Origin: Verrucomicrobiia bacterium
GTDB lineage: Bacteria > Verrucomicrobiota > Verrucomicrobiia > JABWAM01
DNA: 64,000 bases
Assembly: GCA_020849895.1 (NCBI GenBank)
Contig: JADZFN010000007.1
Coordinates: 19,546 to 83,545 of the forward strand
Reading direction: 5' to 3'
Made by a program: the position numbers and the translations under genes. Below, one piece after another: positions 61,451 to 64,000 of this stretch; positions within the stretch are counted from its first letter, which is position 1; every line of letters starts with the position of its first letter. The notes below the pieces were generated by a model. The model did not search any database. It was not told the origin of the DNA and was given only the letters and a program-made list of their open reading frames with translations.

Positions 61451-62179
61451 TCAAGGATAGCCCATGAATTCGTCTTCGTGAATCTGCTCTTGCCGCACGC
61501 CGGCTTGCGTCAGCGCGGCCTGGACGCCCGCCATGAAGCGCGGCGGCCCGGCGGCGTAATACGCCGGGCGGCTCGCGTCACCGAGCGTTTCGCGCAGCAG
61601 CGCGGCATCGAGAAGGCCCGTGCGTCCCGTCCAGCCTCGGCGGGATTTTTCCGCCTGAGACATGATCGCCACCAGCCGGAAGCCGGCGGACTGATGTTTC
61701 CAAGCCTCAAACTCATCCAGAAACGCCGCGTCTTCGGGAGTGCGGTTGGCGTAGAACAACGTCATCGCCCGCGACGAGCCGCGGTCCAATGCGTCCCGGA
61801 TCATCGCGCGAAACGGTGTGATCCCGATGCCGCCCGCCAGAAAGACGGCCGGCGCGGAAGATTCGTTGTCGAGCACGAACGCGCCGAACGGTCCGGCGAC
61901 CTGCACGGGTGCGCCGAGCGGGAGCTCCCCCAGGACGCGCTTGAACGCGCTGCCGGTCATGCGCGTGGCGACCAGTAGGCCTGGCTCCTGCGGCGACGAC
62001 GCGATCGAAAGCGATCGTGCGGCGCCTTTCTCGTCCTGAAAGGGAGGATTGATCAGGGTGATCCGGACGAACTGTCCCGGCCGAAACGCCCACGCTTGAC
62101 CGCCGAGATCAAACCGGAAACTCATCGTGTTTTCGGCGATGACGCAGCGTTCTTGAAGCGTGAGGGTGAGCTTGCCCAT
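61451..62179 (-). CDS. Ferredoxin--NADP reductase-like FAD/NAD-binding oxidoreductase
   Basis: FRPGQFVRITLINPP...ARSLSIASSP...VFLAGGIGITPFRAMIRDAL. Confidence 0.88.
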   Translation of the reverse strand: MGKLTLTLQERCVIAENTMSFRFDLGGQAWAFRPGQFVRITLINPPFQDEKGAARSLSIASSPQEPGLLVATRMTGSAFKRVLGELPLGAPVQVAGPFGAFVLDNESSAPAVFLAGGIGITPFRAMIRDALDRGSSRAMTLFYANRTPEDAAFLDEFEAWKHQSAGFRLVAIMSQAEKSRRGWTGRTGLLDAALLRETLGDASRPAYYAAGPPRFMAGVQAALTQAGVRQEQIHEDEFMGYP

Positions 62180-62333
62180 GGTCCGACGGCGCGCGCTTCC
62201 GAAACGTGGCACGTCTCGCGGAATTTTCAACTGCTTGCCGCCGGCTTCCCAAGGAGGGGCAGCCCTCCTCCGTTGCGGACGGCTGGACGGTCCCGCAGCG
62301 ATGAAGCCTCGCGCTCTCTTCTCACGACCGGAA

Positions 62334-62429
62334 GATGTGCGCCCGTCACAACGTCAGCGAGCCAACGTACTCCCGCTGGAAGCGGGTCTACGGAGGCATG
62401 GAGGTGGACGAGGCGCGGAAGATGGGCGG
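62334..62429 (+). pseudogene. IS3-family transposase OrfA remnant
   Basis: Frame not in the ORF track: MCARHNVSEPTYSRWKRVYGGMEVDEARKMGG, OrfA HTH/tail signature. Confidence 0.7.
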
Positions 62430-62845
62430 GATTGGTTCACGCGGAGAAGCGGAGACGCGGAGGCATCCAGGTGGTTTACGATTCGGTGCAGACCTTCCTT
62501 GAGGGTTGCAGCACCAAAATTGATCAGTAGGCCAACCGGAAGGTTCATCAGGCGCAGGTAGGTGAGCAGTTGCTTGCCGTGGACGGGCGCGAGTTTTTCC
62601 ACCGACTTGAGTTCCACGACCACGCGGCCTTCCACAAGCAGATCAACGCGGAAACCTTCCTCAAAAACCATCCCGTCGTATTCAAACCGGATAACCTTTT
62701 GCCGCTCGGCATGAAAGCCCCGCCGCTCCAGTGTCCTCGCCAGCACCGCTTCATAGACCGATTCCAGCAATCCCGGCCCAAGCTCCATGTGAATCTTGAG
62801 CGCCGCATCCACAGTCGCGCCGGTGATGTCATCCAGTTCTTTCAT
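62354..62845 (-). CDS. GxxExxY family protein (PD-(D/E)XK-like), with extended C-terminal tail
   Basis: GPGLLESVYEAVLARTLERRGFHAERQKVIRFEYDGMVFEEGFRVDLLVEGRVVVELKSVEKLAPVHGKQLLTYLRLMNLPVGLLINFGAATLKEGLHRIVNHL. Confidence 0.9.
   Translation of the reverse strand: MKELDDITGATVDAALKIHMELGPGLLESVYEAVLARTLERRGFHAERQKVIRFEYDGMVFEEGFRVDLLVEGRVVVELKSVEKLAPVHGKQLLTYLRLMNLPVGLLINFGAATLKEGLHRIVNHLDASASPLLRVNQSRPSSAPRPPPCLRRPASSGSTLAR
62436..62466. repeat. GCGGAG-rich motif, inverted relative to the tandem array
   Basis: ttcacgcggagaagcggagacgcggaggcat on the + strand; the same motif lies on the - strand at 62846-62995. Confidence 0.75.
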
Positions 62846-62995
62846 TGCTTCTTCCTCCGCGATCTCCGCGCCTCCGCGTGAGTGTTATTCACAGGTGCTT
62901 CTTCCTCCGCGATCTCCGCGCCTCCGCGTGAGTGTTATTCACAGGTGCTTCTTCCTCCGCGATTTCCGCGCCTCCGCGTGAGTGTTATTCACAGG
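62846..62995. repeat. Three tandem copies of a 50-bp unit
   Basis: tgcttcttcctccgcgatctccgcgcctccgcgtgagtgttattcacagg at 62846-62895, 62896-62945 and 62946-62995; the third has one C-to-T change. Confidence 0.97.
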
Positions 62996-63068
62996 TGGCC
63001 TGCTTTCTAATCCCATCGGATTCGATAGGCTGGCCTTTGACCATCATTTTCTGATTCTTGGTGCTCAT
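62985..63068 (-). pseudogene. Truncated 5' end of a gene coupled to the methyltransferase
   Basis: ATG at 63068 overlaps the methyltransferase TGA; encodes MSTKNQKMMVKGQPIESDGIRKQATCE and stops at a TAA inside repeat copy 3. Confidence 0.6.
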
Positions 63069-63712
63069 GCGGCGGCCTCCTTCGGAGCAAGGCCCGCCAG
63101 CTCACGCACCGTCATCGGCGGGTAGGTCTTGGCGGGTGTGAAGATCTCGTGCTTCCCGGATCTGGCAAAGAGCGAGTCTTCGGCGCGGAAGGTCGAGGAA
63201 AGCGTGAGACTGTCGAAGCGGAAGTCGCGCCGCTGGAAACTGCCTTTGCCGAGATAGCCCCATTCCGCAAAGAGGATCGCCGAGCCATCGGCGGCACGCA
63301 TTTTCATGGCATCGCCGTGGACGAGGTTTTGCGAGAGCACGAAGGACGCGGCGCGGTACAGGTCGTCGGACGGATCGAGGCGCAAATCCTCGGCGAAGAT
63401 CTCGAGCAGGTTGGCGCGGCAATCGGCGATGTTGTCCGGCAGCAGTTCAACGCCGTAGATGCACATCAACCCAAGCAGCGCGTAGTGCCGCCGCTCGAAC
63501 TCGGACTGGCCGTATTTGAGTTCCACGGCGACGAGCTTGCGCCGCAGGATTTGCACGAGGAAGTTCCCGTTCCCGCACGCCGGTTCCAGGAAGCGCGAGT
63601 CCATGCGCTCGGTTTCGCCCTTCACGAGGTCGAGCATCGCCTCGACCATCCAGACGGGGGTGAAGACCTCCCCGTGATCGGCGATCCGTTGTTTGGACTT
63701 CACCAGGCTCAT
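63065..63712 (-). CDS. DNA N6-adenine methyltransferase-like protein (motif I region)
   Basis: KQRIADHGEVFTPVWMVEAMLDLVKGETERMDSRFLEPACGNGNFLVQILRRKLVAVELKYG; no obvious NPPY/DPPY. Start 63712 chosen (ORF extends to 63775). Confidence 0.8.
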   Translation of the reverse strand: MSLVKSKQRIADHGEVFTPVWMVEAMLDLVKGETERMDSRFLEPACGNGNFLVQILRRKLVAVELKYGQSEFERRHYALLGLMCIYGVELLPDNIADCRANLLEIFAEDLRLDPSDDLYRAASFVLSQNLVHGDAMKMRAADGSAILFAEWGYLGKGSFQRRDFRFDSLTLSSTFRAEDSLFARSGKHEIFTPAKTYPPMTVRELAGLAPKEAAA

Positions 63713-64000
63713 GGAGCGATCAGCAAATGGGGTGTTTGTGCGCGGATCATGTCGGCGCATTGTGCCGAACTTCACACGACGTGACCACGGCCGGTGTCCC
63801 TAGGGTCCATGCACCTTCACGAGTCACCGTTTCTGTCCTCAAACTGCTGCTGCCTCAAAAAACCGGATCAAACCTTTGTCCAACGGCCTGTTTCGGGGTT
63901 TTTGGATCAAAATGGTCTCGGCAGGCGTTTTCTTGCGTAACCCTTTGATGTTCCGCCTGATTTCGCGTGGATCAAACCTGATGACAAAGTTCACCTGAAC

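Follow-up and report, generated by a model that had tools for sequence, protein, structure and literature searches.

INTRODUCTION

Free-standing homing endonucleases are encoded by a nuclease gene that stands alone between two conserved phage genes, with relatives in which the site is empty, and the cassette described here is similar in this respect; we know of no homing family, however, that has inverted arrays of core words such as those reported below. Three further kinds of element invite comparison. The intervening sequence (IVS) of the 23S rRNA of Coxiella burnetii has a 28-bp terminal stem and an S23 ORF preceded by three tandem heptamers, and RNase III excises it (PMC4990558). In REPtrons, a RAYT (TnpA-REP) gene, often retained long, is bordered by inverted repeats (REP, BIME) that also occur as scattered gene-less copies, and RAYT is an HUH (Y1) transposase that works on palindromes with a GTAG tag (PMC8266576). 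Finally, RU elements are short, intergenic and MITE-like, and can carry ORFs (PMC2759123).

The locus studied here lies in a window of 64,000 nt, the whole stretch of DNA that was analysed. It comprises the following features.

62354..62845, minus strand: ORF of a GxxExxY protein, 163 aa (TIGR04256 and PF13366 matches)
62477-62827, minus strand: nuclease domain, residues 7-123 of this ORF
62855..62882, minus strand: copy of the 5' arm closest to the gene, three CGCGGAG cores, minus strand CTCACGCGGAGGCGCGGAGATCGCGGAG (sequence)
62905..62932, minus strand: second tandem copy of the 5' arm, 50-bp unit (TRF, period 50, 3 copies)
62955..62982, minus strand: third tandem copy of the 5' arm, one core being CGCGGAA (TRF, period 50, 3 copies, and sequence)
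62846..62997, minus strand: 50-bp tandem triplication, which includes the 5' arm together with the stretch leading to the start codon (TRF)
62436..62463, plus strand: 3' arm, the inverted partner, TTCACGCGGAGAAGCGGAGACGCGGAGG (sequence)
62329..62417, no strand given: stretch directly beyond the 3' arm, probably a remnant of an IS3-type orfA (copies elsewhere)
63065..63775, minus strand: upstream neighbour, N6 DNA methylase-like, restriction-modification context, co-oriented (weak PF02384 and PF20473 matches, partial NF047738 match)
61451..62179, minus strand: downstream neighbour, probable FAD/NAD-binding oxidoreductase, co-oriented (ORF list; label from reading the sequence)

Like the 23S rRNA IVS, the cassette has an ORF, sometimes decaying, within a terminal inverted repeat of about 30 bp in transcribed DNA, and three tandem short repeats directly before the start codon. 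Unlike the IVS, its protein has a nuclease fold instead of a four-helix bundle, its repeats have a period of 8-11 nt, it bears no G.U signature, and it sits in protein-coding operons with a nuclease ORF, not in 23S rRNA with an S23 ORF. With REPtrons it shares a gene bordered by inverted repeats, scattered gene-less copies (here in relatives) and long retention, but it has a PDDEXK_3 nuclease and non-palindromic triple cores where RAYT systems have an HUH (Y1) transposase. It is short and intergenic like MITEs and RU elements, for which the accessible part of the source mentions neither tandem-core arms nor a nuclease (PMC2759123). The inverted ends of a classical IS or DDE transposon are present, but neither a target duplication nor, between the window arms, a transposase gene was found. 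Since IS elements, REPtrons and IVS each have a defining feature that was tested for and found to be absent, the cassette is assigned to none of the three. No description of it was found in the searchable literature (bioRxiv and most subscription papers lie outside that search), and exact core strings used as queries returned unrelated papers only. The literature searched gave no function for GxxExxY proteins, mentions elsewhere being off-topic, including one in an algal virus genome.

RESULTS

A predicted RecB/Cas4-like nuclease

In profile searches the window protein scored 133 bits against both TIGR04256 (cut-off 35) and PF13366 (PDDEXK_3, cut-off 22), and it is filed under these families. 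The searches for related PDB sequences and Rfam families gave no convincing match and no match, respectively. The AlphaFold2 model of the protein is confident (pLDDT 96.7, pTM 0.90), and its best match among solved folds is the Cas4 nuclease SSO0001 (prob 0.99, E 2e-3); MGME1 and lambda-type exonucleases match more weakly, and I-Bth0305I, a PD-(D/E)XK homing enzyme, is a distant fold match only. Within the GxxExxY family, the G..E, D, ExK and Q positions are invariant and the Y of QxxxY is nearly so. The fold and the motif set E-D-ExK-QxxxY are those of Cas4, lambda exonuclease and MGME1 (RecB-type). Unlike these, the GxxExxY nuclease has only about 120 aa, no evident Fe-S domain and no CRISPR context, and the E-value of the fold match is only 2e-3. 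Model and motifs together point to GxxExxY proteins as putative minimal RecB/Cas4-like PD-(D/E)XK nucleases. This protein is the only recognised gene between the window arms, where no transposase gene is found.

Paired arms are the rule around GxxExxY genes

A sequence-only reading of the window had noted three 50-bp tandem copies upstream of the minus-strand gene, a related inverted element near its 3' end, and an inward orientation of the two, like that of terminal inverted repeats. All three observations hold. The triplication at 62846-62997 has a TRF score of 297 with 99% match, and the 5' arm at 62855..62882 pairs with its inverted partner on the plus strand at 62436-62463 with a score of 19.0. 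The triplication itself is special to the window locus, the arm being present as a single copy in the nearest homologues (L115-L117); the outer end of the 3' arm, TGGTTCACGCG, is common to L115, L116 and other homologues, as seen in flank comparisons. In L115 and L116, translation of the 3' arm supplies the tail of the protein (SASPRLRVN...); the stop codon and the start codon of the downstream HsdR-like gene apparently overlap (ATGA).

In the window, the final part of the annotated ORF runs through the 3' arm into the 89 nt at 62329-62417, which produces an odd C-terminal tail. This stretch is repeated, with a 91% identical copy in the same genome (G000:C46:2832-2920) and an 86% identical one in the same-genus genome G001; read from its translation, it is probably an IS3 orfA remnant, and it marks the outer edge, outside the cassette proper. 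The repeat comprises the window stretch, G000:C46:2832-2920 and L393.

Are the arms a common intergenic repeat, which would have spoken against a cassette? The 8-mer ACGCGGAG is above chance in the window (18 occurrences vs 6.8 expected; 0/100 shuffles). A pattern search, from which all counts in the window's own genome were taken, found exact GCGGAGNNGCGGAG 9 times in the 2.85 Mb, 4 of them at the window locus; the other five contexts are unrelated and look like chance, so that within this genome the motif is no widespread intergenic repeat. The window gene is its sole TIGR04256 gene, and no other copies of the element were found there.

We therefore turn to other genomes. Among 13 loci in same-family genomes, inverted repeats surround nearly every GxxExxY gene, with a different sequence each time. 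In the wider sample, drawn from 291 genomes of the phylum and 80 named contigs of many phyla, the gene is present in more than half of the phylum's genomes (166/291) and in many other phyla, and inward-facing inverted arms occur at 81% of 195 GxxExxY loci from many phyla. Each locus was given the score of the best inverted match of its two 250-bp flanks, one upstream and one downstream, with a threshold of 15. In a control set of 158 loci, the mean score was 21.4 and 80% reached 15; when the upstream arm of one locus was compared with the downstream arm of another, the mean fell to 9.9 and 6.8% reached 15, and none of 296 displaced flanks of the same loci did so. Given the 81% of paired loci and the 0/296 displaced flanks at that score, the pairing at the window locus is not due to chance. 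The loci are not all independent, 21 of them being fabD-fabG orthologues; most sphingomonads, however, are in the block L126-L166, and 124 of the 158 arm-bearing loci come from elsewhere. The arrangement in the window is thus a general rule and not a local oddity. A lack of paired arms at other GxxExxY loci, which the sequence-only reading had named as evidence against a cassette, was not observed. A single viral contig (L195) was among the scanned loci, and phages are thus not evident carriers in that scan.

Ends of the unit, empty sites and derivatives

The limits of the unit are best seen in two paralogues, L289 and L290 (88% protein identity), at unrelated sites of one genome. What they have in common begins and stops, to within 5 nt, at the outer edges of the two arms (75.7% nucleotide identity over 465 positions), and their similarity beyond these edges is at the level of shuffled sequences. 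Terminal inverted repeats, a feature of classical IS and DDE transposons, thus stand at the unit's edges. By contrast with such transposons, no target site duplication was detected, direct repeats at the edges equalling the swapped control (n=139), so ordinary cut-and-paste is not indicated.

Orthologous sites differ in what they hold. Across the genomes of one family, the pheS-pheT gap is occupied by a GxxExxY gene in G104; G022 has a CACAGAG hairpin there without a gene, G079 has an S23/IVP gene in arms of the 7-nt type (L326, G079:C19:14800-16200), and the gap measures 5 nt in G160 and 2 nt in G093. The contents of the gatA-gatB gap and of the L256 site vary among relatives in much the same way. 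Truly empty sites are found at pheS-pheT in G160 and G093, at L256 in G079, at L104 in G160 and at L257 in G096. Presence and absence at orthologous sites, a feature of homing endonuclease genes, is thus established. At the window's own position, an empty counterpart was not found in four relatives, because the flanks are not conserved in them. None of the truly empty sites holds a core array, which indicates that the arms arrive with the unit and are not a pre-existing target. Spread by homing to pre-existing copies of the motif, as the sequence-only reading had it, is therefore dropped; homing in a wider sense, as nuclease-provoked spread to the same site, may occur.

Reduced forms also occur. 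At L234, an in-frame-deleted nuclease without its catalytic centre lies between well-matched arms, and the L118 mini-elements consist of a 5' arm, a start-codon stretch, a 3'-end stretch and a 3' arm. To judge from their sequences, these forms appear to have arisen by deletion from gene-bearing copies.

Placement in operons and inheritance

Both neighbours are co-oriented with the GxxExxY gene in 80 of the 93 loci where this could be determined, and the arm begins a median of 7.5 nt past the upstream stop codon. Orientation was taken from a composition-based gene caller, chosen because a longest-ORF rule is unreliable in GC-rich DNA; it called the GxxExxY gene correctly in 193/195 loci and left 61 loci undetermined. 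Judged from these alignments and gene calls, the arms are the ends of a unit that sits just after a stop codon inside operons, in the same orientation. The host gene pairs include gatA-gatB, pheS-pheT, fabD-fabG, pdhB-pdhC, cysD-cysN and restriction-modification operons (fabD-fabG from annotation, the others from reading of flanks or annotation). The window copy and its closest homologues lie within or beside restriction-modification operons, as would be expected if GxxExxY were an accessory nuclease of defence islands and the repeats were regulatory sites; the many loci in the housekeeping operons just listed argue against this reading, which we consider very improbable.

Some cassettes have been inherited vertically for a long time, in which they differ from a very active transposon: the fabD-fabG residents of sphingomonads form one clade in the protein tree, with a single other tip inside. 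Such long retention is also what one would expect of ordinary vertically inherited genes equipped with promoter or terminator repeats. For the family as a whole, however, we give this explanation hardly any credence, since paralogues share the arm-to-arm segment only, orthologous sites can be empty, and the protein is 92% identical in a Chthoniobacter genome, with values of 75-78% in genomes that bear the labels Planctomycetota, Lysobacterales, Desulfuromonadales and Chloroflexi. The six residents of gatA-gatB type are scattered over the protein tree, whose support is modest, and this suggests that cassettes reached that site more than once.

Each cassette has its own core word

A typical arm contains three 7-nt cores spaced 8-11 nt start to start, giving about six cores per cassette. 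Common cores are CGCAAAG, CGCGGAG, CACAGAG, CGCAGAG and ACAGGAT; CACTAAT and CGTTAAT are rarer. The GCGGAG pattern that had been taken as the mark of the element at the window is therefore not a general one, each cassette having its own core. Indeed, cores are alike at 6.35-6.41 of 7 positions inside one cassette vs 4.37 between cassettes, and cassettes within one genome bear different words (4.2/7). Between the two arms, mismatches amount to 4.2% in cores vs 40.5% in spacers. As this contrast is partly built into the core finder, we repeated the comparison on the positions that the finder leaves free; cross-arm core mismatch there was 8.9%, and the contrast with the spacers holds.

Core identity rises from 3.7 to 6.7 of 7 with nuclease identity. 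In 19 sphingomonad orthologues the six cores co-vary with one another (6.63 vs 6.01; 0/2000 permutations). Within genomes, the relation between protein similarity and core similarity was not significant (rho 0.10, 155/1000 permutations). Moreover, repeats that mirror each other in the two arms resemble one another more closely than other repeats do (mismatch 0.090 vs 0.128; 0/2000), so that each arm also corresponds to its partner.

Such mirroring, repeat by repeat, would be expected if the arms formed an RNA stem as in the IVS, with RNase III cutting the stem, freeing the ORF RNA and separating the neighbouring messages, and with the nuclease as a passenger. This reading also accommodates the co-orientation with the host operon, the position directly after stop codons, the folding of the window element with its arms paired (z -2.1) and the precedent of the Coxiella IVS, with its 28-bp stem, tandem heptamers and RNase III excision (PMC4990558). 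Furthermore, S23/IVP genes use comparable arms in the genomes analysed here. PF05635 (S23/IVP) genes outside rRNA (L196-L225) are flanked by inverted arrays, mostly of 7-nt units, and 16/30 of them score at least 15, vs 1.8% of swapped arms; S23/IVP and GxxExxY are unrelated families with a common design and at least one common site (pheS-pheT). On the other hand, selection for an RNA stem through a wobble bias was not detected, arm mismatches having no preference for G.U-compatible changes (165 vs 171, p = 0.79), and a stem alone needs neither tandem cores that are alike nor free spacers. Taken together with the rest of the arm anatomy, mirrored repeats without a G.U bias favour two readings over an RNA stem, namely recognition of the cores as DNA, perhaps within a DNA hairpin or cruciform, and copying from one arm to the other; we regard the IVS-like explanation as unlikely.

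Gene-less arrays

CGCARAG triple arrays are present in 87/291 genomes, with hundreds of copies in a few, and a reversed control pattern is near zero in the 291 genomes. Of 30 arrays sampled, 10 are paired with an inward partner at most 700 bp away and none with an outward one; a GxxExxY match is near only two. A run of about 17 CGCAAAG units stands without an inverted partner at L355 (G261:C1:3776070-3776212). At L372-L386 (G129, G289, G008), some of which are at contig ends, the CGCARAG arrays are embedded in near-identical repeats, and it seems that other, larger repeats carry them; G008 has 287 array matches. At L388 and L389 (G266), a common sequence extends from the outer edge of a CGCAGAG array about 90 nt inward, the preceding flanks being unrelated. 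Other residents are seen between paired CGCARAG arms, namely ORFs for a 182-aa protein with a membrane-like start (L361/L366, G133:C1:860113-860753) and for a 134-aa protein (L350).

These arrays raise the question of whether the arms themselves are the element, mobile or useful to the host in the manner of REP- or MITE-like intercistronic hairpins and moved by other machinery, with GxxExxY, S23 and other ORFs as cargo captured many times. In some genomes gene-less hairpins and solo arrays are more numerous than gene-bearing ones, the ORFs of L361/L366 and L350 occupy such arms, and the 76%-complete assembly of G001 contains solo arrays and a CGCGGAG hairpin without a gene, but no GxxExxY match. 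Against this, arrays and GxxExxY genes co-occur strongly (79/166 genomes with the gene vs 8/125 without it; odds ratio 13, p = 1e-15, uncorrected for kinship), core identity rises with nuclease identity as described above, and some gene-less forms look like deletion products (L118, L234). Capture of the gene by independent arms thus appears improbable to us.

DISCUSSION

We consider it fairly probable that GxxExxY genes of this kind belong to nuclease-encoding mobile cassettes whose protein recognises the cassette's own cores as DNA. The ends, presence and absence at orthologous sites, derivatives, concerted cores and position in operon gaps are read from sequence; recognition of the cores as DNA by the encoded nuclease, and copying by repair, are the steps we infer. 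The unit would run from outer edge to outer edge through a 5' arm with about three 7-nt cores, a start codon, the gene for a RecB/Cas4-like nuclease of about 120 aa and an inverted 3' arm. The nuclease, or a partner, would recognise the cores as DNA and act on its own ends, on the target or on both, and repair would copy the unit into a new intercistronic gap. Transcription of the host operon would express the cassette gene, landing between two genes would spare the host, and gene-less hairpins would be non-autonomous derivatives.

Several results were counted against this mobile-nuclease reading: the missing target duplication, the old vertical cassettes, the many solo arrays (inward partners in 10/30), the non-significant correlation within genomes (rho 0.10), and G096, which has 14 CGCARAG array matches, yet no sampled GxxExxY gene with that core. 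As to the cassette originally proposed for the window, what survives is a small unit with a nuclease gene and no transposase, whose aligned flanks, as in the paralogues L289/L290 and at orthologous sites of relatives, have consistent edges and for which empty sites exist; the homing to resident motif copies and the universal GCGGAG mark do not.

The arms suggest a function for GxxExxY proteins, in that the probable target is written on both sides of the protein's own gene, in a different version per copy. This makes the function directly testable and puts many natural nuclease/target pairs on offer. In these genomes, the cassette could also account for a class of short intercistronic arrays and hairpins. 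Moreover, the intervening sequences of 23S rRNA, an old puzzle, become linked to cassettes that sit in ordinary operons. More tentatively, and with somewhat more doubt than conviction, we propose that a RecB/Cas4-type nuclease may drive a large, unnamed class of mobile elements with GxxExxY genes as their autonomous core, each element bearing six copies of its own 7-nt recognition word and word and nuclease drifting together, and that S23/IVP cassettes, including the 23S rRNA IVS, may be a parallel class with the same design. If so, nature would hold a large repertoire of small nucleases, each matched to a target word that can be read.
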